The notes under the pieces are model-generated. The model saw only the letters and a program-made list of their open reading frames with translations. It was not told the origin of the DNA and ran no database searches. Position numbers and translations under genes: made by a program. This document shows, in pieces, positions 11,128 to 48,025 of a DNA stretch of 50,769 nt. The stretch spans positions 1 through 50,769 of the forward strand of contig CAJXQM010000019.1 of the NCBI GenBank assembly GCA_913058145.1, read 5' to 3'. This stretch comes from an uncultured Colwellia sp. GTDB taxonomy: Bacteria > Pseudomonadota > Gammaproteobacteria > Enterobacterales > Alteromonadaceae. Numbering within the stretch: the first letter of the stretch is position 1; every line of letters begins with the position of its first letter.

Positions 11128-11498
11128 AATAAAAAGGGGTACATCGAAGAAAGAAGAGAGGCATATTACTTGTTCTTTCTATTAATAAAAATAAAGGCGC
11201 TATATTAGCACTGAACTCATTAGGTTTCATCGCCTCGACTAAACTATTTACCTGAGTTATAAACAGCTGGGAAAATACTAATCAATCATTATTTTAGTAG
11301 ACGATAACGCTTTCTAGTCTGCTTCTACTAACTACCTTAGTTCATCATCACAAACACTAATAATATCACCTCAAACAGTTAGTATTTTCGTTAATGACTA
11401 AAAATCAGGAGTTAGTGATATATATCAGTGTTTTTTATCACTAATCAGAGTTAACTACTTATTGTAACTAGATTGTTAATTCATTAGTGGAAATAACT
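11128..11498. other. Intergenic region before the nfeD operon
   Basis: This 371-bp AT-rich gap separates the divergent Nudix and nfeD genes and marks the left edge of the stress-gene block. The only clear signal is the palindromic site at 11415-11428. A TAGATT about 45 bp after it could be a -10 element, but this is weak. Confidence 0.5.
11415..11428. promoter_or_regulatory. CTGAY-N4-RTCAG palindrome (site 1)
   Basis: GTGATATATATCAG, one base from the 14-bp consensus seen repeatedly in this window; core TGAT-N4-ATCA as in FNR-family sites. It lies about 71 bp before the nfeD start. Confidence 0.6.
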
Positions 11499-12908
11499 AT
11501 GTGTAAATTTTTGGGGATATTTTGTTTTTTTTGGAGCGCTGTTATCTCAGCAGAACCCGCAACGTCATCAGAAACACAGCTATCTAAACAACTAGTAAAT
11601 TTATCTCAACAAGAAAAAAATATTACTACAAGCCAATCATATGTGCCATTATTAACCATTAAAGGTGCCATAGGACCTGCAATTAGTGACTATTTAGTAC
11701 GAGAAATAGACAGTGCTAACATGCTTAATAACATCCCTTTAATTATTATAACACTCGACACTCCTGGTGGTCTAAGCGCTAGTCTAAGAGATATTAATCA
11801 GAGTATCTTAAACTCAAACATTCCAATTGCCTGTTTAGTTTACCCACAAGGTGCACGTGCGGCTAGCGCAGGCACTTACCTATTATATGCTTGTCATATA
11901 GCCGCTATGGCTCCTGCTACAACGCTTGGTGCAGCAACGCCTGTTAATATTTCGGCTCCAATGACATCGTCTACAAAGAATAAAGAACAAGTAAGTACAC
12001 CTTCTACAATGGAGAAAAAAGTATTAAATGATGCAATCTCTTATATTCGCTCACTAGCACAATTACGTTCACGTAATGAACTATGGGCTGAAAAAGCAGT
12101 TGCAGAGGCTGCAACATTAACAGCAAAAGAAGCACTAAAAGAAAATGTCATCACCTTAATAGCCCGATCTCCACAAGCACTATTAAATAAACTAGATGGC
12201 AGAAGGATATCAATAAAACAGCAAAACATAGAATTATCATTGAATAATGCTCGTATAGTTAGCAAAAATCCCGACTGGCGGAGCCAATTTATTGCCACCA
12301 TTACCAATCCTAATATTGCCTACATATTAATGTTACTAGGTATTTACGGTTTGCTATTAGAGTTCTACAGTCCTGGCGTAGGTATAGCAGGTATCACCGG
12401 AGGTATATCCTTACTGGTCGCTTTATATGCCTTTCAGTTATTACCATTAAATTTTGTAGGTGTTGCCTTACTTTTGTTAGGAGTCGTGTTAATGCTCATG
12501 GAATCACTTATACCAAGTTTTGGTGTATTTGGTGTTGGAGGTATTGGCGCTTTTCTTATTGGTTCTATATTTTTATTCGACACAAAACTTGATCAATTTA
12601 AAGTATCGCTCCCGTTGATTGGAGGTTTGGCTTTTATATCTGCGATATTTATCATGTTCGCCCTAGGTGTTATCTACCGAGCACGAAAAAATAAAATTGT
12701 CAGTGGTCAAGAAGAAATAATTAATGCTTGGGTCACTGTAGAGGATGATTTTATTGATAATGGTTTCGTATTTTTTAATGGCGAGCGTTGGGCGGCTAGT
12801 AGTAAAGAGCGATTGAAAAAACATCAACAAGTACAAGTGAAAACTATTAATGGTTTAACTCTGGTTTTAGTACCACAAACAACAATAACAGCCAATACTA
12901 AGGAGTAA
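11499..12908 (+). CDS. NfeD-family membrane serine protease (ClpP-class, long form)
   Basis: The 469-aa long-form NfeD has a signal peptide (cut near VISAEPAT), a ClpP/SppA-like protease domain with [10 protein letters not shown] and the nucleophile S123 in ARAASAGTY, then four or five membrane segments (about residues 265-400) and a C-terminal OB-fold-like NfeD domain. Family members cleave stomatin-type proteins, and the next gene encodes one 4 bp away, a classic pair. Start: ATG 11499, with TGGAA 8-10 bases upstream, preferred over GTG 11487. It is first in a five-gene operon and is preceded by a CTGAY-N4-RTCAG site. Confidence 0.92.
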
Positions 12909-12912
12909 AGTA

Positions 12913-13698
12913 ATGACACTATTATTTACTAATACTGAATTATTCACCGGCTCAATCATATTTTTACTTCTTGCGCTTTTGTTTAGTGCATTTAAAATTT
13001 TACGAGAATATGAACGAGGAGTTATATTTTTACTTGGACGATTTTATAAAGTCAAAGGGCCTGGTTTTATTATTGTTATTCCTTTTATTCAACAGATGGT
13101 TAAAGTTGATTTGCGTATTGTAGTCATGGACGTACCCAGCCAAGATGTTATCAGTCGCGATAATGTTTCAGTAAAAGTTAACGCGGTTATATACTTTAGA
13201 GTAATTGACCCGCAAAAAGCCATTATCAATGTCGAAAACTATTTACAGGCGACTTCTCAGCTAGCACAAACCACCCTGCGCTCTGTATTAGGACAACATG
13301 AGTTGGATGAAATGTTGGCTAATAGAGAGATGTTAAATGCTGATATTCAAACTATTTTAGATGTTAGAACCGACAGCTGGGGCATAAAAGTTTCTAATGT
13401 CGAGATTAAACACGTTGATTTAAATGAAAGTATGATACGCGCCATTGCCAGACAAGCTGAAGCAGAACGTACGCGTAGAGCGAAAGTTATTCACGCTAAA
13501 GGTGAAATGGAAGCATCTACTCAACTAACTCAAGCAGCCAATAAACTTGCCGAAGAGCCTGATGCAATCATGCTACGTTATTTACAAACATTAACTGAAA
13601 TTGCGGGCGAAAAAAATTCTACTATCATTTTTCCTATACCCATGGAGCTGATCAGCGGTTTAGTGAATTCTGTCAAAGAAAAAACTAAGGGATTATAA
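12913..13698 (+). CDS. Slipin (stomatin/SPFH-domain membrane protein)
   Basis: A single N-terminal membrane segment (about residues 10-28) is followed by an SPFH domain: [40 protein letters not shown] and [19 protein letters not shown] helical C-terminal part ends in [18 protein letters not shown]. At 261 aa it is of normal slipin length. Slipins form large membrane-microdomain cages, and this one is the likely partner and substrate of the upstream NfeD protease. It shares a 1-bp stop/start overlap with the downstream cytochrome gene. Confidence 0.94.
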
Positions 13699-14153
13699 TG
13701 AAATATATCATGCTTATATTACTCATTAGTATGTCATTAGCCCTTTATAGCTGTAATAAAGGGCTTGATTCACCTCTAGGATTTAGTCTGCCTAAAGGGA
13801 ATAGTAAAATAGGAGAAAGAGTCTTTTTAGAATACAAATGTTTAGCTTGTCACTCACTTAAAGGCATTGAGGACAGCAGTATCGCAAAAAACAAAAATAT
13901 ATCTGTTCTTATTGGCAGCGATAAAACTCACCTAGTTACTTACGCTGAATTAGTCACTTCGATAATCAATCCTTCTCATAAATTTTCCCGTCCTTATTCG
14001 GACATAGAAAAAACATCGGAAGGTGTATCAAAAATGAAAAATTTTAATGATGTCATTACTGTGACAGAACTTATTGATTTAGTTTCTTTTTTACATCCCT
14101 ATTATGAATTCATTCCTTATGGACAAACCAAATATCAATATTATCCACAATAA
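13698..14153 (+). CDS. Lipoprotein monohaem cytochrome c
   Basis: The 151-aa product has a lipobox (SLALYSC, lipidated C19) and one haem-binding CLACH motif (C48, C51, H52). The N-terminal DSPLGFSLPKGN precedes the haem site. SKMKNFNDVITVTEL offers a methionine as the sixth ligand, and an unusual C-terminal tail ends in IPYGQTKYQYYPQ. The same architecture recurs in the gene at 23168-23620. It should sit on the outer face of a membrane and carry electrons; the partner is unknown. The ATG overlaps the slipin stop, so the pair is translationally coupled. Confidence 0.85.
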   Translation: MKYIMLILLISMSLALYSCNKGLDSPLGFSLPKGNSKIGERVFLEYKCLACHSLKGIEDSSIAKNKNISVLIGSDKTHLVTYAELVTSIINPSHKFSRPYSDIEKTSEGVSKMKNFNDVITVTELIDLVSFLHPYYEFIPYGQTKYQYYPQ

Positions 14154-14170
14154 TAATTACAGGAGTTTAT

Positions 14171-15559: not shown

Positions 15560-15575
15560 CAAGCAGGACACATTT

Positions 15576-16028: not shown

Positions 16029-16088
16029 AAACAGTTTTGGTAAAAATCTTATAGATAATTAGCACCATAACTTAATTTTATACTCTAA

Positions 16089-16102
16089 CTGATAAATATA
16101 AT
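16089..16102. promoter_or_regulatory. Possible degenerate CTGAY-N4-RTCAG site
   Basis: CTGATAAATATAAT has a perfect left half and a right half with two mismatches. It lies 180 bp before the adaptor gene at 16282. It may be a weak site or chance. Confidence 0.25.
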
Positions 16103-20631: not shown

Positions 20632-22161
20632 ATGTTAAAACTCAAATCCGTTGCCATCGATACCTTTAAAGAAAATGTTGCCTATTTACATCGCGATTGT
20701 CCTCTTTACCGCACCGAAGGTTTTCAGGCATTAATGAAAATAGAAATATATATAAAAGGCAATGGTGGTCCTGTACTTGCTGTGCTAAATATTGTTGATG
20801 ACTGCGCTATTGTTGATATTAATGAACTGGGTTTAAGTACCCAAGCTTTTAGGCAATTAGATAAAAAGCAAGGAGTTAACGTAAGAATTGCGCCCGCTAA
20901 ACCGCCAATTTCTCTTAAAGCGGTACACCGAAAAATTGCAGGTCAAACCCTGAACAAAAATGAATTTCATATTATTTGCCAAGATATATTAGAAAACCGT
21001 TATTCAAAAATGGAAATTGCTGCTTTTTTAGTCGCCTGTAGCCATAATGGCTTAGAACGTGAAGAAGTCTTTTTTTTAACGAAAGCCATGGTTGACACCG
21101 GTAAAACCTTGAACTGGGGCGAAGCTATTGTGGTAGATAAACATTGTATTGGTGGCATTCCAGGCAATCGTACCACCATGATAGTGATGCCGATAATAGC
21201 CGCTCACGGTATGCTAATACCTAAAACCTCTAGTCGTGCTATTACCTCTCCTGCGGGTACCGCTGATACCATGGAGGTATTGGCTAATGTCGAACTTTCC
21301 ATAGAACAAATGCAAAAAGTTGTACAGCAGCATCGCGGTATGTTGACTTGGGGAGGGACGGCAAGATTAGCTCCCGTGGATGATATTTTAATTTCAGTTG
21401 AACGACCATTGTCTATGGACTCAACTGGACAACTAGTGGCGTCTATCTTATCTAAAAAAATAGCGGCAGGCTCAACCCACCTGCTTATTGATATTCCCGT
21501 AGGTGCTTCCGCTAAAATTCATCATAATCAAGAGGCGTTAGCCTTAAGGAAATTATTTGAATATATTGGCGATCTCTTTGGTTTACATATCGATGTGGTT
21601 ATTAGTGATGGCTCTCAACCTATAGGTAATGGTATTGGTCCTGCGTTAGAAGCAAGAGATGTACAGCAAGTTTTAAGCAACAAAAAAAATGCCCCTAGTG
21701 ATTTAAGGGAAAAATCATTACGCTTAGCGGGAAGAATTTTAGAGTTTGATCCCGATGTTAGAGGTGGCCAAGGTTATATTATTGCGAGAGATATTTTAGA
21801 ATCTGGTCGTGCATTTGAAAAAATGAAAGCCATAATTTCAGCACAAGGGGGACAGAACAAAAAACAAAGTACGGCCGCGTTAGAGTATTCAGTAATAGCC
21901 CAAAAAAGTGGCTATATTTACGCAATAGATAACTTAAAAATAGCGCGTATAGCAAGCCTGGCTGGCGCACCTATAGATAAAAATGCGGGTATTGATCTTA
22001 TTAAAAAAGTAGGCGATAAAATAAAAAAGGGTGACACTCTTTTTACTATATACGCCTGTTTTAAAAGTGACTTTGAATTTTCTATACAATTTTCTGATGA
22101 AAACAATGCTTATGATATAGGGGAAAATCCGCCCTTGACAGATGATAACTACTTTATTTGA
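20632..22161 (+). CDS. AMP phosphorylase / thymidine phosphorylase family enzyme (archaeal-type, 509 aa)
   Basis: The product is longer than DeoA (about 440 aa) because of an extra ~85-residue N-terminal domain typical of the archaeal AMP-phosphorylase group. It contains the pyrimidine-phosphorylase signature [18 protein letters not shown], the glycosyltransferase-3 core [17 protein letters not shown] and a C-terminal PYNP domain ([15 protein letters not shown]). Characterised archaeal members phosphorolyse AMP/CMP/UMP to base and ribose 1,5-bisphosphate; bacterial members are often annotated as thymidine phosphorylase. The PRPP synthetase 21 bp downstream supports a ribose-phosphate or nucleotide salvage role. 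No ribose-bisphosphate isomerase or RuBisCO is in the window. It lies 45 bp after the exporter genes, possibly co-transcribed. Confidence 0.85.
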
Positions 22162-22182
22162 TTTTATATATTAGGAGTTACT

Positions 22183-23082
22183 ATGACCATAATACTGGGG
22201 TTTGACGATTATTTATACCCTGCTCAGCAGCTAGCCCAAAGTTTATTGATCCCGTTTAAAAAGGTTGAACTGCATCAATTTCCCGATGGTGAAACAAAAG
22301 TGACTTTGCCGGTAAAGTTACCGAGACAAATTATTCTATGTCGAACATTAAATCAGCCTAATGCAAAACTCATTGAACTGATCATAACTTCTTCAGCAGC
22401 AAGAGCCCAGGGAGTTGAACATATTACTTTAGTAGCGCCTTATTTATGCTACATGCGCCAAGATATTGCTTTTAATACAGGAGAAGCGGTTAGCCAAAAA
22501 ATAATAGGCCATTTACTCGGTACCTATTTTGATCGTGTTATTACCATTGACCCACATCTGCATCGCATCAATAGCTTAAGTGAAGCAATTTCAAGCAATC
22601 AAGCTATTGCTTTGCACGCTAGCAGCGCTATATCTACATTTTTACAACAACATTTTACCCAACCGGTGTTGATTGGCCCTGATCAAGAATCCGAACAATG
22701 GGTTAAAGCAATAGCCAAGCCTTATCAGTGGCATTATACAATCGCTACTAAAGAACGTTTAGGTGATAAAAATGTTGTTATAACTTTAGAAACTAATGGT
22801 CAAGAGAATCACAACGAAGTAACCCTAACAAATCGAGACGTTATTATTGTTGACGATATTGCCAGTACAGGACAAACGCTTGAACAAGCAGTAAAACAAA
22901 TACAACGACAAGTACCAGCGAGTATTTCAATCATAGTGACACATGCATTTTTTGTGGATAACGCCATAACAAGACTAACTCATATGGGCGTTGATAATAT
23001 TTGGAGTTCGGATAGTGTACTGCATAACAGTAATGCCTTTAGTATTATAGACATCATAGCAGAGCAACTTAAACTATCTTAA
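22183..23082 (+). CDS. Ribose-phosphate pyrophosphokinase (PRPP synthetase), accessory form
   Basis: This 299-aa enzyme has FPDGETKV, YLCYMRQDIAF, the histidine motif DPHLHRI, GPDQES and the PRPP-binding loop VIIVDDIASTGQTL. It makes PRPP from ribose 5-phosphate and ATP. It is a little shorter than the housekeeping Prs (about 315 aa) and diverges from it, and no ispE/pth neighbours are present, so it is likely a second, specialised copy. It has an AGGAG 6-7 bases before the ATG and follows the AMP-phosphorylase-like gene closely, suggesting salvage of nucleotide-derived ribose phosphates. Confidence 0.88.
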   Translation: MTIILGFDDYLYPAQQLAQSLLIPFKKVELHQFPDGETKVTLPVKLPRQIILCRTLNQPNAKLIELIITSSAARAQGVEHITLVAPYLCYMRQDIAFNTGEAVSQKIIGHLLGTYFDRVITIDPHLHRINSLSEAISSNQAIALHASSAISTFLQQHFTQPVLIGPDQESEQWVKAIAKPYQWHYTIATKERLGDKNVVITLETNGQENHNEVTLTNRDVIIVDDIASTGQTLEQAVKQIQRQVPASISIIVTHAFFVDNAITRLTHMGVDNIWSSDSVLHNSNAFSIIDIIAEQLKLS

Positions 23083-24571: not shown

Positions 24572-24629
24572 AATTAACTCTAGTAATCAATAAAGAATAC
24601 AGTGTCGTTCAAACACCCACATATTAAAA

Positions 24630-24643
24630 TGATAAATATCAGC
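24630..24643. promoter_or_regulatory. CTGAY-N4-RTCAG palindrome (site 2)
   Basis: The core TGATAAATATCA is at 24630-24641; the full match from 24629 is ATGATAAATATCAG, one base from consensus. It lies 59 bp before the 50-aa ORF that starts the minus-strand SGNH/cytochrome operon. Confidence 0.6.
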
Positions 24644-24655: not shown

Positions 24656-25132
24656 TTATTCTACGTTAAATTTTGACTGTTTCTTTTTGAGGTGTTCGAC
24701 ATGAACGATTAATGTGTCGACTGTGTCTTTTAATAAATCTAGCTCATCAACCGTCAGGTCATTTAACTGTTCGAGGTTGTACTCTATGGTATCAATTATC
24801 TTTTTATAAGGGCGCTGCATTGGTCTCATAAAATAGGTAGTAACTGTTGCTACAATGGTTCCAAAAAATAACATCGAACCAATCACTATCCACAGACCAC
24901 CAACTAATTGAGCAGCACCAGATACCGGTGCATCAGCAATTCCAGCAGTAGAAAATGCAGCTACTCCCCAATATAACGCTTTCCCATATGAATTGATTGA
25001 CGTTCCTTCAATACCGCTTTCGGCCAGGTAAACTCCCGCAGCAAAAATTAGCCACAAGATGACTAATAACAACACCATTTTTGTAAATGGGGTATGAATA
25101 GATATATCATTAATTAATTTCTTAAATCGCAT
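24656..25132 (-). CDS. Two-TM potassium-channel-like protein with degenerate filter
   Basis: The 158-aa protein has two hydrophobic helices (about residues 18-36 and 78-100) around a re-entrant pore-like loop, LYWGVAAFSTAGIADAPV, followed by a charged C-terminal helix. The layout is that of Ion_trans_2 (KcsA-like) channels, but the K+ filter TVGYGD is replaced by STAGIAD. It may be a channel with altered selectivity, a regulatory subunit or a non-conducting relative. The IS element is inserted about 80 bp upstream of its start, so its original promoter may be lost. Confidence 0.6.
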   Translation of the reverse strand: MRFKKLINDISIHTPFTKMVLLLVILWLIFAAGVYLAESGIEGTSINSYGKALYWGVAAFSTAGIADAPVSGAAQLVGGLWIVIGSMLFFGTIVATVTTYFMRPMQRPYKKIIDTIEYNLEQLNDLTVDELDLLKDTVDTLIVHVEHLKKKQSKFNVE

Positions 25133-25228: not shown

Positions 25229-25882
25229 TCAACCTAGTGAAGCAACCATTTCTAACTTTCTATCCACTGATTCAAAACCGTTAGGACTTTGATAATCCAG
25301 ATACGAATGATGTATCAACCCTTTTTTGAGTTGTCGTTGCCAAACAGCCATTGTCAACGCATCACAAACAAGCTGTGCTTTTATTCTTGACCCTATGCTC
25401 CAACCCACTACTTTTCGTGAATATAAGTCAATCACGACACATAAATATAACCAACCTTCTGATGTCCAAATGTAGGTAATATCACCTACCCACACTTTAT
25501 TTGGCGCTTCAACAGCAAAGCTTTGCTTTAGCTCATTTTGATAAATGGGTTTGTTATGGTCGCTGTTCGTTGTGGCTTTGTATTTCTTTTTATAACGAAC
25601 CCAAACATTTGCTTCTTTCATTAGTTGAGCCGTCTTACGTCGGCTAACCGGAAAGATTAATGTTTTGAGTACTTTTTTAATCCGCCTAGCGCCATAAGTC
25701 TTGTCACTGAATTTGGCAATATCTTTGATCAACTCAATCATTTTTTGATGTGTTGTATCATCAACGGTACTTACTTTACGCTTTTGAAAACTATAGAAGT
25801 TATTACTTTTAACATACAGAACTTGGCACCTCACTACCACTGGCCTGATCTTCTTATGTTGGGCAATAAACGAATATTTCAC
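25229..25882 (-). pseudogene. IS3-family orfB transposase with internal deletion
   Basis: The 217-aa frame has the HTH_21 region (KTYGARRIKKVLK) and an rve integrase domain with the first two acidic residues, in VWVGDITYIW and VVIDLYSRKVVGW. After GLIHHS the sequence jumps directly to YLDYQSPNGFE, which in full IS3 transposases belongs near the C-terminus (the RRHSYLGYxSP region). The block containing DRGSQY and the catalytic Glu (normally about 60-80 residues) is missing, presumably lost between the two similar HHS/RHS sequences. The frame is otherwise open, but the enzyme should be inactive. Confidence 0.82.
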
Positions 25883-26160
25883 TTCGTTTCTTTGGCAAAG
25901 AAGACCGTCGCTTTTTTTAGGATCTCACGCTCCATTTCTAAACTTTTTACTTGTGCTTTTAAGTTGCTGATTTCTTCTTTCTCTGGTATTAACTTCCCGT
26001 CACCACGAAAAGCGTGACCAGCCTCTTTGAACCAGCGACCTAACATATTAGGATTAACACCTAAGTTTCTTGAGGCTTCTGCCTGGGTATAGTTTTGCTC
26101 AACGACTAAAGTGATTGCATCAAGGTTGAATTCTTTTGAATATATTTTACGTTTTGTCAT
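25879..26160 (-). CDS. IS3-family orfA (HTH transposase subunit)
   Basis: The 93-aa OrfA has a helix-turn-helix (QAEASRNLGVNPNMLGRW) and a C-terminal leucine-zipper-like helix (EKEEISNLKAQVKSLEMERE). An A7G run at 25911-25918 (minus strand) near its end is the typical -1 frameshift site that would make OrfAB. It is intact but useless for transposition without a working OrfB, unless another copy acts in trans. Confidence 0.85.
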   Translation of the reverse strand: MTKRKIYSKEFNLDAITLVVEQNYTQAEASRNLGVNPNMLGRWFKEAGHAFRGDGKLIPEKEEISNLKAQVKSLEMEREILKKATVFFAKETK

Positions 26161-26247: not shown

Positions 26248-26634
26248 TTATTTATCAAGGGTAGATGCTTCAGCTATAGAATTTTTAACTAAAGTAGCGA
26301 CTTCTTCAGAAGTGTTAGTCACAACATCATAAGCTTCTTTAGCTGAAGCAGAAATTTTTGCTTGAAGCTCTTCAGTGAAAACTTTTTGTTTTTCAATCGC
26401 GGTAGTTAAATCTTTTTCCTCTAATAACGCTTTAGTTTGGGCTACACTATCGTTCATGATTGAAATAATTAATACGGATTGTTGGTTGAGTAGTTGTATA
26501 ACTGTTTTAGTACTAATTTCTGCAAGACTGTTTAATGGCTGCATAACTGTAGAGAAATGGTCTGTAGAGAACTGGTCTGCATTATTTATTGATTTCATTG
26601 CAGTAGCAAATTCTTCAGCTAATTGTATAAACAT
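26248..26634 (-). CDS. Phasin-family protein
   Basis: This 128-aa, largely helical, Ala/Glu/Lys-rich protein has no signal peptide and resembles the small phasins that coat polyhydroxyalkanoate granules (FATAMKSINNADQ, AKISASAKEAYDVV). The ATG at 26634 has TAGGA about 9 bases upstream. No PHA synthase lies nearby. A 458-bp upstream gap contains a palindromic regulatory site. The family is loosely conserved, so the assignment rests on composition and pattern. Confidence 0.7.
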   Translation of the reverse strand: MFIQLAEEFATAMKSINNADQFSTDHFSTVMQPLNSLAEISTKTVIQLLNQQSVLIISIMNDSVAQTKALLEEKDLTTAIEKQKVFTEELQAKISASAKEAYDVVTNTSEEVATLVKNSIAEASTLDK

Positions 26635-27092
26635 AATTAAAATTCCTATTTTGGTTTGTTGTGTACTGCGTCGGCGCAGGATGATTTAAAACTTGTGTAA
26701 TTAGTTAAAAGGTTGTCGGCAACAGCCTGTTACTCGCACGGCAGAAATGATTCAAAAAATTAACTATCTGATAAATAAATAATAAAAGCCAAAAACTTTT
26801 GGTTAGCATTTAACAAGCCTATGCAGTTGCTCAGGTAATGTAATACCTTGCATAATAATATAGCCTTATTATTTTGGGTTTTCTCTGACATAAATCAGTT
26901 CTTTATAGGTTTTTAAAATTAAAGGTAATAACCAGAAACTACGAAGTCAACAGTAGGAACCTTAGTGGCTCTTGAATATGTAATAACGCTATGTACTCTT
27001 AACTAGCGCCAGTGATTGCGAAAAACAATGGACAGTGGACTCACTTTACTAATACGTTTAAAAAGAATCTTAAGCCACGTTAGTTCTTTTTT
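26635..27092. other. Intergenic region between phasin and cation ATPase
   Basis: 458 bp without a convincing gene. It holds the palindrome at 26885-26898, about 250 bp before the phasin start, and a weak GGTTGTCGGCAACAGCC hairpin near 26711. Nothing else was recognised. Confidence 0.5.
26885..26898. promoter_or_regulatory. CTGAY-N4-RTCAG palindrome (site 3)
   Basis: CTGACATAAATCAG is an exact match to the consensus, in the gap upstream of the phasin gene. Confidence 0.6.
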
Positions 27093-30645: not shown

Positions 30646-30659
30646 CTGATTTTTGTCAG
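30646..30659. promoter_or_regulatory. CTGAY-N4-RTCAG palindrome (site 4), shared divergent promoter
   Basis: CTGATTTTTGTCAG is an exact consensus match lying 78 bp from the FNT start and about 77-98 bp from the formate dehydrogenase start. One bound regulator could serve both directions. Confidence 0.65.
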
Positions 30660-32847: not shown

Positions 32848-33887
32848 TGAACATTTATTTACTCGATGATATTAAAAAATTACAGTTACATTTAACTTAT
32901 CAATATCAACTACATCAAATAGTTAAAAATAACCAAGGACAAAGTCATTGGCAGCAGATATCAACTGATCAATTTCCTACTTTGCTACATGAAAAAGCAC
33001 AAACTTCCATTAAAGATTTCTTTTTTGCTCAACAAGAAAATATACTAGTTTTTAACGGGGAATATTTTCAGGAGACATTGCCCTCACCTAACCCTTTTGT
33101 TTTATTTGGCGTACAAAGTTGTGACTTGGTTGCTGTAAATTATCAGGATAAATTTTTTAAAAATGATCCCTATTACCAAGCAAGACGAAAACACTGTTTG
33201 CTTGTTGGTCTAGATTGTATTTCACCCTGTGAACATGGCTTTTGTCCAACGGTTAATGCAGGCCCCGGCGTAAGAAGTCACACCGCTGATTTGATTTTAC
33301 ACCCATTAGTTAATCAGCCTTTAGAAAAACCACAATGGCTACTCATTGAAGGCTCAGAAAAAGGCGCAATGGCAATAAAGCATATGACCATTAAAGGTCA
33401 GCCACTTGAGACAGCACATTGGCATTATCTGACTCAACGTGATTTAACACTTAAAGCCTGCAAGCAAAAATTCTCAGACGATAGTCATATTAATATCGCC
33501 ATTGAAAAAATAAATAACAATAATGTTTCAGCCGTTTTTTGGCAAAAAGTAGCCATTCAATGTATAGGCTGTTCTGGTTGTACTAGCTTATGCCCTACTT
33601 GTTCATGTTATGGAACACGAAGCATAAAATTACCAAATGACAATATTTCACAAGAAAGGTTTTGGGATTCTTGTTTGTATGAAGGTTTTCAAAAAGAAGC
33701 AAGTTTTCATAATCCAACAGCAGAAGCAGGAAAACGTGTTGAACGTTTTTGGCGTCATAAATTTAGTGATGGCATTGCAACAGAATTTGATCGCTATGGT
33801 TGTGTTGGTTGTGGTCGATGTGAACAAACGTGTCCCGGTGTGATTGGTGTACATTCAATAATGAAAAGGATAGCCAATGATGCTTAA
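32847..33887 (+). CDS. Iron-sulfur electron-transfer subunit (AsrA / sulfhydrogenase-beta-like)
   Basis: The 346-aa protein carries two Cys-rich ferredoxin clusters: C-x2-C-x2-C-x3-C-x2-C-x-C at about 239-254 and CVGCGRCEQTCPG at 319-331. It resembles AsrA of anaerobic sulfite reductase and the beta subunit of sulfhydrogenases. Here it follows a formate dehydrogenase and so should move electrons between the molybdenum subunit and the flavin subunit. ATG 32847 overlaps the FdhF stop (TGATG), with GGAGGG upstream. Extra cysteines (CDLVAV, CISPCEHGFC) may bind another cofactor. Confidence 0.85.
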   Translation: MNIYLLDDIKKLQLHLTYQYQLHQIVKNNQGQSHWQQISTDQFPTLLHEKAQTSIKDFFFAQQENILVFNGEYFQETLPSPNPFVLFGVQSCDLVAVNYQDKFFKNDPYYQARRKHCLLVGLDCISPCEHGFCPTVNAGPGVRSHTADLILHPLVNQPLEKPQWLLIEGSEKGAMAIKHMTIKGQPLETAHWHYLTQRDLTLKACKQKFSDDSHINIAIEKINNNNVSAVFWQKVAIQCIGCSGCTSLCPTCSCYGTRSIKLPNDNISQERFWDSCLYEGFQKEASFHNPTAEAGKRVERFWRHKFSDGIATEFDRYGCVGCGRCEQTCPGVIGVHSIMKRIANDA

Positions 33888-34722
33888 TCATATCCCTGAC
33901 TCTATTGAAATTATTGATTATAAAGATGATGGTAAAGATACCCGTCATTACCGTTTTCGACTCTTGAGTAAAACTCATCATTCGCACTGGCATGAGACAC
34001 AAGCAGGCCAATTTTTTATGCTTAATGTACCTGAAGTTGGTGAAGCACCATTTACATTCACTGAGCCACCTAATGAGCAAAATGAATTTAGTGCACTCAT
34101 TCGTAAGATGGCTAGTGTTACTTCCGCTTTATTTGATCTGTCTAAAGGACAAATTGTCGGTGCGCGTGGCCCTTTTGGGCAAGGTTGGCCACACACAATA
34201 TTGAAAGATGAATATATATTAATTGTAGCTGGAGGTTGCGGCCTAGCACCTCTTGTTCATTTAATTAACACCCTAATAGCGACTACCGAAAATAAAAAAA
34301 TCGTTTTGATTTACGGGGCGCGCGATGAACAAAGTCAGATGTTAATTGCACAGCAAAAGCGGTGGCTAAAAACAATAACTATTTATCATACCCTTGATCA
34401 AGTATCTGAGGATTCAAATTTCAATGATGGCTTTAATTTACTAAAAGGGACTCCTTTAGACGTATTACCTCAGGCTCTTTCCTCTTTTAATTCCCTACCG
34501 AGCAAAGTATTACTTTGTGGACCAGAAGTGATGATGAACAGTATTGCCCAAACGAGTATTGGAAGAGGAATTCCTGAGACATCAATTTATTTGTCGTTAG
34601 AACGAAGAATGCACTGTGCGGTTGGTCTTTGTGGCCATTGTTATCTTGGCGATCAATACGTATGTAAACAAGGTCCGACCTTTAGTTGGCAACAACTGCA
34701 ATCTTTTAGGTCAACCGCCTAA
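33877..34722 (+). CDS. FAD/NAD(P)-binding oxidoreductase subunit (AsrB / sulfhydrogenase-gamma-like)
   Basis: This 281-aa ferredoxin-NADP reductase-fold protein has an FAD-binding beta-barrel (AGQFFMLNVP), the NAD(P)-binding motif VAGGCGLAPLVHLI, GPEVMM, and a C-terminal [2Fe-2S] site C247, C252, C255, C263. The layout is that of AsrB, HydG and the PyrK-type electron-transfer subunits. It probably links formate oxidation to NAD(P)+ reduction, directly or with ferredoxin. The ATG overlaps the previous stop by 11 bp; translation is coupled. Confidence 0.88.
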   Translation: MMLNHIPDSIEIIDYKDDGKDTRHYRFRLLSKTHHSHWHETQAGQFFMLNVPEVGEAPFTFTEPPNEQNEFSALIRKMASVTSALFDLSKGQIVGARGPFGQGWPHTILKDEYILIVAGGCGLAPLVHLINTLIATTENKKIVLIYGARDEQSQMLIAQQKRWLKTITIYHTLDQVSEDSNFNDGFNLLKGTPLDVLPQALSSFNSLPSKVLLCGPEVMMNSIAQTSIGRGIPETSIYLSLERRMHCAVGLCGHCYLGDQYVCKQGPTFSWQQLQSFRSTA

Positions 34723-35010
34723 CATTAAAAATGAACTTTTTGTTTTTAACTCGCCTTATAATGTTGCTATGAACAAGATAATAAAATGCTTAGAGCAAAT
34801 CTGTTATGAGTGACATTTGTCAGAAACTAGATCATGGTTAGGTGCTAACATTTCTTTGTAAATAGCAGCTAAGATGAATTTTTTAAAATAACTTATTGAC
34901 TACTATTTTGCAGCAGTACTTAACAAAGCGATATTTGTTTTTTTTATTGCTTAACCACGCCAACGACTGCTTACTCCTTGGCGTCATAATTTATATTTGG
35001 AGATATACTC
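34723..35010. other. Intergenic region before hsp20
   Basis: This gap of just under 300 bp holds the palindromic site at 34810-34823 and little else. No heat-shock (sigma-32) promoter is obvious, so hsp20 may be driven by the regulator of the palindrome. Confidence 0.4.
34810..34823. promoter_or_regulatory. CTGAY-N4-RTCAG palindrome (site 5)
   Basis: GTGACATTTGTCAG, one base from consensus, 187 bp before the hsp20 start and just past the formate dehydrogenase operon. Confidence 0.55.
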
Positions 35011-35475
35011 ATGTCATTATTTAAACACCAGCCTTTAACAACAAGACCCCAATTGCCAGTATTTTCGCAGTTATCACACGAAATTGACCGACTTTTCGGT
35101 AACGGTTACCAGATGAATAACCGACATTCAGATTTACTAGCCGATGTTTGGCAGCCTTCCACAGATATAGAACAACGAGATAATCAATATATTGTCAGAG
35201 CTGATATTCCTGGTGTTGATCCAAAAAACATTAATGTTTCTATGGATAATGGTAATTTAGTAATTGAAGGGAAAAGAGAAAGTAAAGCAGAAGAGAAACA
35301 AGATAACTTCTATCGACTAGAACGCTCTTACGGTAGTTTTTATCGAAGCTTTAATTTACCTAATGCGCAAGATGCTAAAAAAATTGAAGCACATTGCAAC
35401 AATGGTGTGTTAGAAGTTATTGTTCCTAAAGTTGTCGCGGAAAAACATAAGAAAATCGAAGTAAAAGTAGATTAA
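35011..35475 (+). CDS. Small heat-shock protein (Hsp20/alpha-crystallin family)
   Basis: The 154-aa product has a variable N-terminus, then the alpha-crystallin domain: DIEQRDNQYIVRADIPGVDP, VIEGKRESKAEEKQDNFYRLER, SYGSFYRSFNLP and NGVLEVIVPK. It holds unfolding proteins in a refoldable state. GGAG lies 9 bases before the ATG. It is convergent with lon, the two sharing a hairpin between them. The C-terminal IXI motif is not typical, as is common in this subgroup. Confidence 0.94.
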   Translation: MSLFKHQPLTTRPQLPVFSQLSHEIDRLFGNGYQMNNRHSDLLADVWQPSTDIEQRDNQYIVRADIPGVDPKNINVSMDNGNLVIEGKRESKAEEKQDNFYRLERSYGSFYRSFNLPNAQDAKKIEAHCNNGVLEVIVPKVVAEKHKKIEVKVD

Positions 35476-35543: not shown

Positions 35544-38009
35544 TTATATTTTGTTAGTTAGTGCTTCAGTCAATACGGTATTCACATCGTCAGCTAAGAC
35601 AAAGCGCATCTTGTCCTGAATAGACTCTGGCAGGTCACTTAAATCTTTCTCATTTTTCTCTGGCAAAATAACAGTAGTTAAACCGGCGCGGTGTGCAGCC
35701 AAAATTTTATCTTTTATACCTCCCACGGGTAATACCAAACCTCGTAAGGTGATTTCACCCGTCATACCAATATGATTACAAACAGGCCTTTTTGTTAATA
35801 ACGAGACTAACGCGGTAATAAGAGCAACCCCCGCAGATGGCCCATCTTTAGGGATTGCTCCTGCTGGTACATGAACATGGATATCGGTATGCTCAAAAAA
35901 GTCTTCAGCAATACCTAAATGCTTCGCTTGGGATCTTACGTAACTTAACGCGGCTTCAACTGATTCGCGCATTACATCACCTAATTGTCCGGTAATGGTT
36001 AACCCTTTTTTACCTAGCATAGCGCTAGCTTCAATAAATAATATATCGCCACCAACGGCGGTGACGGCTAAACCGATCGCGACCCCTGGACGTTCAGTAC
36101 GTTCGGCAACATCATAAGAAAATGGGGGTTTACCAATTAATTCTTCCAACACGCCATTATTTACAATGAGCGATTCGCCACTATTTTTCGCTATTTTTAT
36201 CACTAATTTACGACAAATAGCGCCTAGGCGGCGATCCAAACTCCGTACACCCGCTTCACGTGTATATTGTCGAATAATGCGAATCATCGCTGTATCACTG
36301 ATGGTTAATTCATCAGCTTGTAAGCTATTTTCCCGTAATTGCCGCGGTAATAAATAGCGTTTTGCAATATGAAGTTTTTCATCATCGGTATAGCCCGATA
36401 AGGTAATGACTTCTAATCTATCTCGTAACGCGGCAGGAATAGAATCTAGTTGATTAGCAGTGGCAATAAACATTAACTGACTAAAATCAAAAGCAACTTC
36501 GAGATAATGATCACGAAATTCTCTATTTTGTTCGGGATCTAGGACTTCAAGCAGTGCTGCCGCAGGATCACCTCGCTGATCACCACCAACTTTATCAACT
36601 TCATCCAATAAAATCACTGGATTATTAGATCCTACATCTCGTAATGCTTTAATAAACCTACCGGGCATCGCGCCAATATAGGTTCGACGATGACCTCGAA
36701 TTTCAGCCTCGTCATGTATACCACCTAAGCTGATACGAATTAATTTACGACCTAAAGCATGTGCTATCGAATGACCTAAAGAGGTCTTCCCAATACCTGG
36801 AGGACCAACAAAACAAAGGATCACACCTTCCCTCACCTGACGGATATGGTTGGACGGCTCACTATTTTCTATTGGTTTAGCTAATTGTCTCTGCTGTCGC
36901 AGTTGTCTTACCGCTAGATATTCTAAAATACGTTGTTTTATTTTTTCTAATCCATAATGATCTTCATCAAGTATTTTTTCAGCCAGCTTAATATCTAAAA
37001 TGCCTTCGGCTGTTTTTTTCCAAGGCAGCGCGATTAACCAATCAAGGTAGGTCAATATCAGGCCCGACTCTGAAGATGATTGCGGGATATGTTCTAAACG
37101 CGTAATCTCTTGAGTTGCTTGTTCTTGTGCTTCACTTGACATACCACTGGCTTCAATTTTTTTTCGGTATTCATCTATTTTAACTTGTTGACCATTCTCT
37201 TCACCCAATTCACGTTGAATAGCCTTGATTTGATGCCGTAATACATTGTCACGTTGTGCCTTGTCCATTTCATCATGAGCATCACTTTGTATTTTTTTAC
37301 CAAGCTCTAATACTTCCATTTCGTGTTGGATCAGATTGGTCAGTTTAAGCATTTTTGCCACAACATCTTTCAAACTAAGTATCTCTTGTGCATCTTTGAT
37401 GTTAATTCGCATACTAGAGCTGATTAAATAGACAAGTTGACGACAATCTTCTGTTTGGGTTAATGAATTCATTAAGGATTGCGGTAAATAAGAAAGTATA
37501 TTAATTAATTTGCCAAACGACTTTATCAAATTATTGCGTATCGCTTCAGCTTCAACGTCCCCCTCTTCGGGTTCTATATCATCAACCACTTCAATTTTAG
37601 CTCGTAAATAGGGTTTTTCACTAAGCCAAGCGTCGACTGAAAATTTATCAAGCCCTTGTAACAAAACAGTAGTCTGATTGTTTTCAGCCAGAGAGATCCT
37701 CAGTATTTGTGCAATACAACCTACCTGATAAAGATCATTAGGATTTGGTTGTTCCACGTGTTGATCTTTACAGGCAATAGTAGCCAATAAATTATTACCG
37801 TCAGCCACGTTCTTTAGCAATTTTAATGATCGCTCTTGGTCAACAGAAATGGAATTAACATTGTAAGGGAATAAAACCAAATTTCGTAATGGTAATACAG
37901 GTAAATTATCAGGGATTGCGACTGACTCTTTGTTTTGTTGATGAACATTGACTGTACCCTGGCCATTACCATCTTTTATTTCAATATCTTTCACTTTAAT
38001 ATCTGACAT
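35544..38009 (-). CDS. LonA-type ATP-dependent protease, accessory copy
   Basis: The 821-aa product has the N-terminal Lon substrate domain ([13 protein letters not shown]), a coiled region, an AAA+ module with Walker [10 protein letters not shown] (402-409) and Walker [10 protein letters not shown], and the protease domain with nucleophile Ser in KDGPSAGVA (about 725) and Lys in [14 protein letters not shown]. The ATG at 38009 has a GGAGG Shine-Dalgarno and is preferred to the frame-extending 38048. The N-terminal extension and the absence of clpX/hupB neighbours suggest it is not the housekeeping Lon. It is convergent with hsp20. Confidence 0.93.
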
Positions 38010-38587
38010 CACTGTCCTCCTTAATTCTAATAAAACTAATGAATTCACAACTAACTTTTGTCATTTTATGATCACGGATACAATGCATAATATGATTGAG
38101 CAAACTTTTACGTTTCATCAATTAGACATCACTAGTCATTCTGATATCAGCAAGTGTAAACATTTATCACCTTTAAACGATCAACCACTTTAAATTCAAA
38201 GAGTTCATTAAGAATAATAGTAATCCCCTTTATTGAATTACACGCTGATATTTATCAGTTTAATTTCGTAATATTATGGTTAAGGTTATTCTGGTTAAAG
38301 TAATAACGTAGACTCATTCATACAATAGACTTATGATTTATATAGATATTCCTATGAAGTAGCCCGTTATTGGTATTAAAGATTATAGTAAAATAAATGG
38401 AGAAATAATTGCATTATACTTGGTTGTAGCATATTTTTATAATCACTTTAGTCCGATATGCTAAACCGCATACAACGAATAATCTGTATCAATAATAAAT
38501 ACGAGTCAGTGTTCAACAGTTTTTACTAAAACTTAATGAACAGGGAAATGGCAGGAAGTACACTATGTGTCTGAAGGGAGTCAGGTG
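38010..38587. other. Divergent intergenic region, lon / response regulator
   Basis: 578 bp, AT-rich, no gene. It contains the exact palindrome at 38245-38258 and a shorter related palindrome CTGATATCAG at 38141-38150, 132 bp before lon. Both promoters must lie here. Confidence 0.5.
38245..38258. promoter_or_regulatory. CTGAY-N4-RTCAG palindrome (site 6)
   Basis: CTGATATTTATCAG, an exact and fully symmetric outer match, lying 236 bp from lon and 330 bp from the response-regulator start. Confidence 0.6.
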
Positions 38588-39253
38588 ATGGAGTTAAAAG
38601 TACACAAAATTTTTATTGTTGATGATCATGAACTTATCCGCCAAGGATTATGTCAATTGGTTAATGGCGAAATAGACATGCACATTTGTGGTGAGGCTGC
38701 CGATGTTCACGGCGCACTTAAAATGAGGAACACTCTAACGCCAGATTTGGCCATTGTTGATCTATCACTGCCCGATGGTAGTGGCCTTGATCTGATCAAG
38801 CAACTTCATAACTGGCTCCCCGGCATGCACATTATTGCCTTGTCGATGCACGATGACGAATTGTATGCGGAAAGAGCCTTAAATTGCGGAGCACGAGGTT
38901 ATATCAATAAGCAAGATTCAGCGCATAAATTACTGGTCGGCATAAGGCAAGTGATGAACAACAAAATCTTTGTTAAACCTGAGATTACTGAAAAAATACG
39001 TAAAAAATCATCAATCAAAACCACAGGTAAAAATGTTCTTAGCACGAATATACTCACCAACAGAGAACTGCAAGTATTTGAAAGTATTGGACAAGGCATC
39101 AGTACAAAAAAAACAGCACAATTACTTAACGTGAGTATAAAAACGATTGAAAGCCACCGACGTCATATCAAAGATAAGTTCAACTTATACTCTGGAATAG
39201 AGTTAACACGCTCGGCTATATTGTGGTACTTAGAAAAAAACCAAGCAAAATAA
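38588..39253 (+). CDS. Orphan LuxR/NarL-type response regulator
   Basis: This 221-aa protein has a receiver domain with acidic pocket D12-D13, phospho-acceptor D58 in AIVDLSLPDGSG, Ser in ALSMHDD and Lys near 109 in YINKQDS. A LuxR-type HTH follows: LTNRELQVFESIGQGISTKK and SIKTIESHRRHIKDKF. No histidine kinase is encoded in the window. The ATG at 38588 has AGGGAG upstream; GTG 38567 is an alternative. Its place in the middle of the palindrome-bearing genes makes it a candidate regulator of them. Confidence 0.92.
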   Translation: MELKVHKIFIVDDHELIRQGLCQLVNGEIDMHICGEAADVHGALKMRNTLTPDLAIVDLSLPDGSGLDLIKQLHNWLPGMHIIALSMHDDELYAERALNCGARGYINKQDSAHKLLVGIRQVMNNKIFVKPEITEKIRKKSSIKTTGKNVLSTNILTNRELQVFESIGQGISTKKTAQLLNVSIKTIESHRRHIKDKFNLYSGIELTRSAILWYLEKNQAK

Positions 39254-41886: not shown

Positions 41887-41945
41887 TGGTATCCATAAAT
41901 GAATACTCCTTGGTATCATAAGTTTTATTACAGGCGGATATTTTA

Positions 41946-42990: not shown

Positions 42991-43004
42991 CTGATAAAAA
43001 TCAG
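42991..43004. promoter_or_regulatory. CTGAY-N4-RTCAG palindrome (site 7)
   Basis: CTGATAAAAATCAG, exact consensus, the distal of two tandem sites before the PEP-CTERM gene. Confidence 0.6.
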
Positions 43005-43049
43005 AGAAATACAAGTCAATAAACATAAAAAAAATTGTTATTCATCCTT

Positions 43050-43063
43050 CTGATATTAGTCAG
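43050..43063. promoter_or_regulatory. CTGAY-N4-RTCAG palindrome (site 8)
   Basis: CTGATATTAGTCAG, exact consensus, 59 bp from site 7 and 138 bp before the PEP-CTERM start. Confidence 0.6.
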
Positions 43064-43200
43064 TTACTCAGCTGCTATTCACCTTATACCATGTCCTCAG
43101 GTTTGAAAGGTTAATTAACGGGAGAGAGTATCGACTAAAAAAGTTGCAATTAATTATGAATATATTTGGGTATATAACTTGAAGGATAAGGAAATCAACT

Positions 43201-44058
43201 ATGACAACAATACGAATACATTCACGCTCACTGTTAATCAGTGCCGCATTAGCGGCAAGTACCTCTCTGCTTTCATTGGGGGCTCATGCAGGAATAGTGT
43301 ACAACGGTTACGCAGACATTGAATACTGTCTAAATAGTGTGACCTCAGTGACTGGGTCAAATAACGGTAACAATCCAGGGGCTTGCCAGAGTAATGGCTG
43401 CGGCAGCGGGAATGGCAGCGGCAGCGGCAGCCAAGGTTGGTCAGTTTCATCAAGTAGTGATATCTATGATTTGAATGCTTCATCCAGTGGTTCTGGGGTA
43501 GCGAGCACTGATAGTATGATCGGTGCTGCTACCAACTGGAGTTTAGGAGATTCATTTATTCAAACGTCGGAATCCTATGGTGGTGCAAGCGGCAATGGTT
43601 CTGCCGACTCATTTATAGAGTCAGAATTTTTCATTTCTTTTACCAATAATCTTAATACTCCACTCAGTTTCGAATTTTTATTTAGCTCGTTCGTTAGTGC
43701 CGATATAGATGTAAATGGCAGTTTAGGTACAAATGATGACAGCAGTAGCTATGCAGAAATATCCTTATTCGATAAGGATATGGATGAATTGTTTTTCTCA
43801 TCAGCAGAAGCATTTATCGGTGGTGATCTTATTAGTTCAGAGACTAACGACAATCAAAGCCTTAGAGTCAATTTACAAGGTAAAGAAAGCAATGAGATTT
43901 ACGGAATAGTGTATAGCGACGGTTACGCAGAATCCGTGCGAGAGTCTGTATCCGTACCTGAGCCATCAATAATTTGGTTGATGACCTTAGGTCTGTTCGG
44001 TTTACTGACCCAAAAAACTCGTCAACGCTCAAATAATCACATTAAAAATATGATGTAA
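43201..44058 (+). CDS. PEP-CTERM-anchored exported protein
   Basis: The 285-aa protein has a signal peptide (LLISAALAASTSLLSLGAHAG), a Gly/Ser-rich low-complexity region with four cysteines (about residues 60-85), a beta-rich body and a C-terminal PEP-CTERM sorting signal: VPEPS, hydrophobic WLMTLGLFGLL, then basic KTRQR. Such proteins are processed by exosortase and displayed or released at the cell surface, often with exopolysaccharide. No exosortase is encoded here. The AAGGA Shine-Dalgarno is good. The large exported protein follows 33 bp downstream. Confidence 0.85.
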   Translation: MTTIRIHSRSLLISAALAASTSLLSLGAHAGIVYNGYADIEYCLNSVTSVTGSNNGNNPGACQSNGCGSGNGSGSGSQGWSVSSSSDIYDLNASSSGSGVASTDSMIGAATNWSLGDSFIQTSESYGGASGNGSADSFIESEFFISFTNNLNTPLSFEFLFSSFVSADIDVNGSLGTNDDSSSYAEISLFDKDMDELFFSSAEAFIGGDLISSETNDNQSLRVNLQGKESNEIYGIVYSDGYAESVRESVSVPEPSIIWLMTLGLFGLLTQKTRQRSNNHIKNMM

Positions 44059-44091
44059 AAATTTAGATAACACTATCAAAAGGAAAATACG

Positions 44092-46584: not shown

Positions 46585-46904
46585 TGGACAGTAAACTGTA
46601 ATTGGTGTATTCGAACGCTGCCGATGACCGTAGAGTCTTTGGCAGCAATCATAATTACTCGACTTGAAATGGTGTAAGTGAAGTACTTACACCATTTATA
46701 TTAATCTAACAATCTGCTTAGGCTCGAATAACCGCGTAACAAAATAAATGGTATCAAAGACATACTATTGAGCATTATGTTAACATCATTATATTAAATT
46801 ATCTCATGCCTTTTCTTGAGCAATTCAACCTAAGCTCTATATCAATTCATTACTACCTTTGAACATAATACCTAGCTAAGTGCTCCCATCAGAGATACGT
46901 TTTA
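46585..46904. other. Intergenic region between convergent genes
   Basis: 320 bp separating the large exported protein from DUF2202. It has a strong hairpin at 46667-46697 and a weaker GCTGCC...GGCAGC stem about 46617-46646; no gene seen. Confidence 0.5.
46667..46697. terminator. Strong bidirectional hairpin terminator
   Basis: AAATGGTGTAAGT pairs perfectly with ACTTACACCATTT over a 5-base loop. It is 80 bp past the 830-aa gene and between convergent genes; A- and T-rich arms allow it to work in both directions. Confidence 0.75.
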
Positions 46905-47585
46905 TTAACGTCCTAGAATGTCGTCTACCTGTTCTTGTGTAAGTACCTGTGCTGTGTAATTTCCTTCGCCTATTTGTTTCTCAATATTTCGAACATAGGC
47001 TCGTAGATGGTTTTTTGAACCAGCGAGTAAATTTCCATAAAGACGCTGTATATCGGGGTTATCTGTATATATTTTACCGCACTCAGATACGTCATTGATT
47101 TCGTTATCAGTGTCCACTATTACTTCAGGGCACTGATTAATATCAAGCATATCTAGTTCTTCAATGAATGCGCCAACATACATAGCTTCAAGCTTACTGA
47201 CCAATCCTCTTCCAACTAAAACACTGAATTCATGAGTAAAGTACTTACCATAATCTTTGCCCGTAAAAGCGCCTACGTTATCATTTGTATTCGGATTAGG
47301 AATACCATATTTTTGAAGCATATCGGCAACCGCGCATTTGTGTCTTTCTTCCGAATCATCAATTTTACCGAAAATTTTTGCCTGTGGATATTTGGAACCA
47401 AGTGTAATATAGACATCACGCGCAAGTTTCTCTTCTTCACACATAAATTCCAAATGTGTTTGTTCATTGAAATCTAATGTGCGCTTGCTATTGTTCTTGT
47501 ACTTGTTGGCATTAACAGGATTCATACTTAATGCTATTCCCAAGACCGAAAACCCTATAATAATAGTTTTAGTTCTAATTTTCAT
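46905..47585 (-). CDS. DUF2202 ferritin-like protein, exported
   Basis: This 226-aa protein has an N-terminal hydrophobic signal (IIIGFSVLGIALSMNPVNA), then a four-helix, ferritin-like DUF2202 domain: LEFMCEEEKLARDVYITLG, EERHKCAVADMLQKYG, YVGAFIEELDML and SKNHLRAYVRN. Conserved Glu and His residues suggest a di-metal site; the biological role is unknown. It is convergent with the upstream block and preceded at about 217 bp by a palindromic site. Confidence 0.85.
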   Translation of the reverse strand: MKIRTKTIIIGFSVLGIALSMNPVNANKYKNNSKRTLDFNEQTHLEFMCEEEKLARDVYITLGSKYPQAKIFGKIDDSEERHKCAVADMLQKYGIPNPNTNDNVGAFTGKDYGKYFTHEFSVLVGRGLVSKLEAMYVGAFIEELDMLDINQCPEVIVDTDNEINDVSECGKIYTDNPDIQRLYGNLLAGSKNHLRAYVRNIEKQIGEGNYTAQVLTQEQVDDILGR

Positions 47586-47801
47586 TCAAAACCCCTTGCT
47601 AATCGTTAATGGTGAAAAGTTTGTGTATTACTTCGAATCATCAGTAATACATGGTTTGACATTGCCTCTATCAACCTAAATTTGAAATAGCTTTAGTTAA
47701 TATTTAATTAACTAAAGCACTCCGAGATCCTAAAACAATGACGCTTGCAAAAACAAATGGTAGTTAACTTGAAAGAAAACGCACAAAAAAATACTCAATA
47801 G

Positions 47802-47815
47802 ATGACAAATATCAT
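47802..47815. promoter_or_regulatory. CTGAY-N4-RTCAG palindrome (site 9)
   Basis: ATGACAAATATCAT: core TGAC-N4-ATCA matches, both outer bases differ. 217 bp before the DUF2202 start. The weakest of the ten. Confidence 0.45.
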
Positions 47816-48011
47816 GATTGTCAAACTTTATTGTGCGTCTTTATTTTCAAATTTAGGGGTTTTTCATAAAGATGATCAACAGTGTAGTTGAAGTATACTT
47901 CCATCAGTACTTAACTTAGCTATGGTGCTGCCAATGTTGATTATTATAAGTATCATCATATTTTTACTTACAGTATTCATAAAATATACTTAATTTTTCA
48001 TGACTCTTGCC

Positions 48012-48025
48012 CTGATAAATATCAT
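48012..48025. promoter_or_regulatory. CTGAY-N4-RTCAG palindrome (site 10)
   Basis: CTGATAAATATCAT, one base from consensus, 63 bp before the 67-aa ORF, with TATATT or TATTAT about 15-20 bp after it as a possible -10. Confidence 0.55.

Follow-up and report, generated by a model that had tools for sequence, protein, structure and literature searches.

Which protein reads a 14-bp palindrome, CTGAY-N4-RTCAG, that recurs in front of low-oxygen and stress genes in the DNA of an uncultured Colwellia sp.? The palindrome stands in a stretch of 50,769 nt, here called the window, to which all coordinates without prefix refer; the genome it belongs to, G000, measures 3.0 Mb. A first-pass annotation of the window had proposed either a Dnr/Crp-like protein or the response regulator encoded at 38588 as the reader. 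Our analysis of the sequences makes it likely that the palindromes are operators of an FNR-type oxygen sensor, dedicated to this genomic island and encoded elsewhere, and that recognition helix and operator changed together in this lineage.

The first-pass annotation had listed ten intergenic copies of the palindrome, five exact, four with one outer base off and one with both outer bases off. All of them were found, as given here together with the presence of the hexamer TANNNT at an offset of 22 bp, which is taken up below.

11415 to 11428, plus strand: GTGATATATATCAG, before the nfeD/SPFH genes; one outer base off; no TANNNT at offset 22
24629 to 24642, minus strand: site before the operon of a 50-aa open reading frame (ORF) and a GDSL lipase; one outer base off; no TANNNT at offset 22
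26885 to 26898, minus strand: exact site before the phasin gene; TANNNT 22 bp on
30646 to 30659, no strand assigned: exact site between the genes of the formate channel (minus) and formate dehydrogenase (plus); no TANNNT at offset 22
34810 to 34823, plus strand: site before hsp20; one outer base off; TANNNT 22 bp on
38245 to 38258, no strand assigned: exact site between lon (minus) and the response-regulator gene (plus); TANNNT 22 bp on in both directions
42991 to 43004, plus strand: exact distal site before the PEP-CTERM gene; no TANNNT at offset 22
43050 to 43063, plus strand: exact proximal site before the PEP-CTERM gene; TANNNT 22 bp on in the minus direction only
47802 to 47815, minus strand: ATGACAAATATCAT, a weak site before the DUF2202 gene; both outer bases off
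48012 to 48025, plus strand: site before a 67-aa ORF; one outer base off; TANNNT 22 bp on

Allowing up to one mismatch, 18 motif matches were counted in the window compared to 3.09 expected, a number that none of 100 shuffles reached. Nine of the 18 had not been listed before (4321, 17634, 23084, 31967, 36477, 37674, 37725, 38571 and 47133), and eight of these nine overlap ORFs of at least 120 aa. The statement that the flanking regions lack the motif holds for exact sites but not for one-mismatch matches. Intergenic DNA, 16.6% of the window, contains all five exact sites (binomial p = 1.3e-4) and 10 of the 18 matches (p = 1.9e-4). In the whole genome the exact pattern is present 24 times and the reversed pattern once. 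Five of the 24 copies fall into the 50.8-kb window (Poisson p = 6.5e-5), a density about 12-fold over the genome-wide one, and 10 of the 19 exact sites outside lie within ORFs of at least 90 aa, which makes it likely that the regulon is concentrated in the window with few outliers. Two intergenic exact matches at C12:57779 and C26:33643 have the form CTGACTARCGTCAG with central G and C; they differ from the island sites and possibly represent another repeated element.

The palindromes are conserved in orthologous promoters of three related genomes, G640, G651 and G516, which the first-pass annotation had named as a supporting result. The orthologous nfeD promoters of all three carry CTGAY..RTCAG, and GTGATATATGTCAG is found upstream of the orthologues of the 50-aa ORF and lipase genes in G651. 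In the lon/response-regulator intergenic region CTGAyATTTATCAGTT is kept, and in the formate channel/dehydrogenase region CTGATTT-N3-TCAG, with the outer C..G present in four of four genomes in both cases.

The position of the palindromes relative to a putative -10 element points to the type of regulator. For 53 curated site-to-gene orientations from the four genomes, including near-copies and both directions of divergent sites, the mean score of a TATAAT-like hexamer was 3.13 at 22 bp after the 14-mer and at most 1.39 at the other offsets from 8 to 49. Strong hexamers occurred at offset 22 in 19 of the 53 orientations and at any other offset in no more than 7. In an uncurated control (the window with a C2 stretch, G640 and G516; G651 was dropped as a near copy of G640), the 44 flanks of 22 exact C..G sites also peaked at offset 22, with a score not reached by any of 2000 shuffles. 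A hexamer starting at -12 places the centre of the site at -41.5, where class II activators of the CRP/FNR type bind, and both this geometry and the TGA-N6-TCA spacing are those of FNR. The palindromes hence look like class II FNR-type activator sites centred near -41.5 in sigma-70 promoters, and the assignment to the FNR superfamily made from the window alone is supported. At three promoters of the genome (26857-26898, C2:238262-238303 and C1:90935-90976) a block from the palindrome through AACCCAAAATAATAAGG to the -10 element is shared, as if one promoter had been copied (the two sites outside the window, C2:238290 and C1:90935, are among the outliers); the genes behind it encode the phasin, an HlyD-type protein and a protein with a transcriptional-regulator C-terminal domain.

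The Crp helix-turn-helix (HTH) model matches four proteins of the own genome. FNR cysteines are present in two of them, the ordinary FNR and a paralog encoded outside the window at C2:80650-81348 beside a P-type ATPase gene (neighbours were named by reading). The paralog matches PF13545 above the cut-off, and C12, C15, C21 and C111 are invariant in 10 aligned members of its clade, some shorter database entries of which come without the N-terminus. In its recognition helix, LASETVSR, the E-S-R contacts are kept and a Ser stands where other FNRs mostly have Val or Ile. We refer to the clade of this paralog as the S clade, and to G000, G516, G640 and G651 as S genomes. E196, S199 and R200 are invariant in 26 of 26 S-clade rows and residue 195 is Ser in 25 of 26 (near-copies included), whereas it is Val or Ile in all 24 FNRs of related islands described below, and Val, Ile, Leu or Met in 45 ordinary FNRs. 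Residue 195 aligns with the Val of solved FNRs; via the E-T-V motif we take it to be equivalent to Arg180 of CRP and Val208 of E. coli FNR. Among the 120 best relatives (of 375 above threshold in a collection of 5.8 billion proteins), 53 have Ser before E, namely P0002-P0054 except P0046 (Pro) and the fragment P0045, as well as P0057 and, outside the clade, P0116. Against the NCBI Fnr model NF008365 the paralog scores 146.4 bits, below the cut-off of 228. The canonical operator TTGAT-N4-ATCAA is not matched by its putative sites, where C is the outer base of 51 out of 68 half-sites between genes. The outer C/G had led the first-pass annotation to postulate a regulator other than canonical FNR, which is supported; a Dnr/Crp-like protein is not, the candidate found being an FNR paralog with four cysteines. 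This second FNR on another contig, rather than the response regulator at 38588, is the likeliest reader.

The paralog type occurs in four of 395 genomes of the same family, the S genomes. Orthologs of the response regulator with at least 57% identity are found in these four and in G058; eight further genomes contain matches of 32-38% only. In G640, G651 and G516 the FNR paralog is located at most 17 kb from the response-regulator ortholog. A scan of 98 family and 369 class genomes, in which the best matches with a kept locus were read, gave no further S-clade genome, as all 58 loci (L082-L139) were non-Ser. Matches in 295 order genomes were limited to the own genome and G038, the latter canonical on reading, and in a scan of viral contigs two matches were obtained, both with ordinary helices. 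Taking out seven near-copies and seven rows that were outliers or had long branches left 95 of 109 rows for a tree, in which S-clade and island FNRs are joined, apart from 46 ordinary FNRs, with a support of 99/97.

A comparison of operators with helices carries the argument further. Out of 42 response-regulator loci, 24 have a recognised FNR helix with Val or Ile and are termed Val/Ile islands; the titles of 22 say gammaproteobacterial, those of L025 and L029 only proteobacterial. In all 24 the response-regulator gene is 1.3-1.8 kb from the FNR gene on the opposite strand. Left out were short pieces with no FNR helix (L027, L032, L044 and L052 with 1-2 TTGAY and 0 CTGAY each; L062 with 2 and 0) and 13 loci from other groups, which have 1 TTGAY and 2 CTGAY in all. 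The 24 loci contain 53 copies of TTGAY..RTCAA and 4 of CTGAY..RTCAG, with reversed controls of 4 and 7. Exact CTGAY..RTCAG copies instead number 5 in the window (50.8 kb) and 6, 6 and 10 in 80 kb each of G640, G651 and G516; TTGAY..RTCAA occurs in these four stretches 0, 1, 2 and 2 times, always inside ORFs. Outer bases of intergenic half-sites, pooled for the own genome, G640 and G516, are C 51, A 8, G 6 and T 3 (n = 68), and C 16, A 3, G 2 and T 1 in G651, which as a near copy of G640 stayed outside the pool; in the Val/Ile islands they are T 87, A 11, C 3 and G 1 (n = 102). Inside ORFs they are mixed in both (T 20, A 13, C 8, G 3 in S islands; T 50, A 38, C 27, G 15 in Val/Ile islands). The TTGAY sites of the Val/Ile islands also show a -10 peak, at offset 21 with a lesser one at 22, and none of 1000 shuffles reached it.

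G058, whose island FNR was found by Pfam and has the Ile helix AIETASR, belongs with the Val/Ile islands: 60 kb contain 8 TTGAY copies, 6 of them intergenic, versus 1 CTGAY copy, 16 bp from that FNR gene, and its intergenic outer bases are T 15, A 1 and C 2 (n = 18). With Ser-FNR accompanied by C sites and Val/Ile-FNR by T sites, a joint switch of specificity in the island-dedicated FNR and in its operators is probable. The direction of change, from Val/Ile to Ser and from T to C, is inferred from the tree and the commoner state. The residue at CRP position 180 has been described to co-vary with the very operator base that differs here (PMC1274295).

Composite promoters connect the motif with the presence of the paralog. 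Strand hits of the site followed by N22 and TANNNT number 7 in G000, 8 in G516, 5 in G640 and 7 in G651, and 0, 0, 1, 0, 0, 0, 2, 1, 1, 0, 0 and 1 in 12 control genomes without the paralog, hand-picked by genus (one-sided Mann-Whitney p = 0.0013). Since divergent sites count twice, the distinct composite sites are fewer (6, 7, 3 and 5 in G000, G516, G640 and G651), and at least one hit, C1:217846, falls in an ORF. The canonical TTGAY composite occurs 3-5 times in the four paralog genomes and 2-8 times in the controls. Plain genome-wide enrichment was dropped as a test, the 14-mer being about equally common in 11 genomes without the paralog. In the genome-wide scan proposed in the first-pass annotation, genomes that have the regulator cannot be told from those that lack it by the bare count, but they can by the count with a -10 element.

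Several observations weigh against the assignment to the paralog. The bare 14-mer is present 24, 28, 32 and 38 times in the genomes with the paralog and 7-33 times in the 11 without it, and TANNNT follows exactly 22 bp on towards the listed gene at only four of the ten window sites (26885, 34810, 38245 and 48012). The own paralog lies outside the island, with no TGAY-N4-RTCA core in the surrounding 20 kb. Other FNR-like proteins carry E, D, Q or T at residue 195, P0116 has Ser outside the clade, and the S clade also differs at HTH positions 185, 204 and 205. When the long-branch rows are kept, the grouping of S clade and island FNRs is supported by 86/72 only. Being one clade, the S FNRs represent essentially one evolutionary switch, so the many sites are not independent events. 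In PMC1274295, finally, HcpR proteins that carry Ser or Pro at the equivalent residue are paired with T and not C; Ser alone hence does not dictate C, and the helix context must matter.

An alternative reader would be the NarL-type response regulator at 38588 itself, acting in a DosR-like way. The island includes its gene, a palindrome stands in the promoter of that gene, the half-sites of the DosR box are spaced similarly, and the helix of the regulator likewise differs between the two groups (KTIE[ST]HRRHIKDK in S genomes, KTIETHQA[HNR]IK[KR]K in Val/Ile islands where readable), which again speaks against the paralog. However, the helix in G058 is different again (KTIETYKSNIKRK) and yet the operator there is TTGAY as in the other Val/Ile islands, so that orthologs with at least two quite different helices coexist with one operator. 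The -41.5 geometry and the TGA-N6-TCA spacing are of the FNR type. A weak additional point is that 23 of the 24 Val/Ile islands have no TGAY-N4-RTCA core within 800 bp upstream of the response-regulator gene; as a kinase gene precedes this gene in the two loci read, the promoter may lie farther off. The indirect evidence thus points both ways, though more against than for, and we regard the response regulator as an unlikely reader whose earlier nomination is weakened.

Even less credit is given to the idea that TTGAY and CTGAY are both read by the main FNR, which the genome encodes with an ordinary helix, and that the C is neutral. The degenerate outer bases at 11415, 24629 and 34810 would fit such tolerance. 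Against it, the scanned stretches of the four S genomes have no intergenic T..A site and five T..A copies in ORFs, outer C makes up 51 of 68 intergenic half-sites versus 8 of 44 in ORFs, and the 12 genomes without the paralog have only 0-2 composite CTGAY promoters each. In Herbaspirillum seropedicae, changing positions 14 and 7 of a promoter abolished its activation by Fnr1 alone, for which the authors blame the lost 3' A (PMC5934665). That the main FNR and the paralog form heterodimers at half-canonical sites, for which H. seropedicae Fnr3-Fnr1 sets a precedent (PMC5934665), is very improbable with outer T nearly absent (3 of 68 half-sites).

If the second FNR is the reader, it would hold a [4Fe-4S] cluster and dimerise at low oxygen, and the dimer would bind CTGAY-N4-RTCAG near -41.5 and activate sigma-70 promoters in class II mode. 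Predicted targets switched on in this way are phasin, the formate channel and dehydrogenase, Hsp20, Lon, the NfeD operon and the response regulator. In relatives the island FNR has Val/Ile and the canonical TTGAY; here Val/Ile would have become Ser and T become C together, a change that probably keeps the island apart from the main FNR of the cell. With helix and sites apparently changed together, a second FNR need not interfere with the main oxygen sensor. A fully insulated rewiring, by which one helix and one operator change create two orthogonal FNR circuits per cell, with the ancestral version in relatives, is a stronger claim that we put forward tentatively and fall just short of favouring.

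The genes behind the sites agree with the low-oxygen and stress set recognised in the first-pass annotation. The annotated genes of the island are as follows.

11487 to 12908, plus strand: NfeD-family protein, putative target
24656 to 25132, minus strand: ion-channel-like protein inside the island, below Pfam cut-offs
26248 to 26634, minus strand: phasin, putative target
27093 to 29693, minus strand: P-type cation ATPase inside the island; nearest Ca-type models, below their cut-offs
29717 to 30568, minus strand: formate/nitrite channel, putative target
30736 to 34722, plus strand: molybdopterin formate-dehydrogenase-like operon of three genes, putative target
35011 to 35475, plus strand: Hsp20, putative target
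35544 to 38048, minus strand: Lon protease, putative target
38567 to 39253, plus strand: NarL/LuxR-type response regulator, putative target and more likely this than the reader of the motif
43201 to 44058, plus strand: PEP-CTERM protein, putative target
46905 to 47585, minus strand: DUF2202 protein, putative target
48088 to 48291, plus strand: 67-aa ORF without Pfam match, putative target

Targets were scanned in two relatives, G640 and G516, and there sites are also found before genes of Usp proteins, AMP-binding enzymes, a P-type ATPase, a GGDEF protein and a CBS protein. Among the Val/Ile loci examined (L024, L033 and L037), they precede Hsp20, Usp, cytochrome oxidase, CBS, antiporter and radical-SAM genes. 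IS3-family transposase genes are located at 25229-26160, between the ion-channel-like gene and phasin, and in G640 and G651 the FNR paralog adjoins the orthologous lipase gene; the island may have been rearranged there. A phage-integrase-like gene is found at 8789-10033 near the island edge, and at 20632-23082 a pyrimidine-nucleoside-phosphorylase-like gene adjoins a PRPP-synthase-like gene.

In L024 and L033 (8352-10640) a PAS histidine kinase gene stands directly before the response-regulator gene, between it and FNR, so that kinase, LuxR-type regulator and FNR-like protein lie side by side as in FixL-FixJ-FixK cascades. The window differs from these cascades, as no kinase was seen among the genes scanned beside its regulator and an FNR-type site is present in the regulator's promoter. 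The gene before the response regulator in the window is lon, on the opposite strand, and the regulator may thus be an orphan.

With E. coli-type FNR/ANR and its FNR box, TTGATNNNNATCAA, the system shares the cysteines, the E-S-R contacts, the TGA-N6-TCA spacing and the class II position. It differs by the outer C/G in place of T/A, the Ser in place of Val/Ile before E, and the score below the NF008365 cut-off. The E-x2-S-R contacts of FNR are named in PMC4505428, which also describes Pseudomonas putida as a cell with several FNRs; all three of them bound the canonical FNR box in preliminary shift assays and they differ in oxygen sensitivity. H. seropedicae likewise has several cluster-bearing FNRs with partly separate promoters, and Fnr3 activates phasin and targets NarXL (PMC5934665). 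The outer T/A of the Fnr3 motif is merely not well conserved, whereas here it is replaced by C/G and the sites are concentrated in one genomic island. The HcpR case of the CRP-FNR recognition code concerns G versus T, in proteins with no cluster cysteines (PMC1274295). By description, the low-oxygen-activated locus of Burkholderia cenocepacia resembles the island in its clustered low-oxygen stress genes, with Usp proteins and a heat shock protein (PMC6127331). In the open-licence literature we found no paper on the motif and nothing relevant on cross-talk between FNR paralogs, H. seropedicae Fnr3 being the nearest precedent.

Taken with their class II promoters, the related islands appear to present the before-and-after states of a natural switch in transcription-factor specificity, Val/Ile with T versus Ser with C. 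This would make it possible to test directly by what means a global regulator avoids cross-talk with its twin after duplication, and what is read by the residue at FNR position 208. It also leads to the prediction that oxygen regulons of these bacteria would be overlooked when only the standard FNR box is searched.

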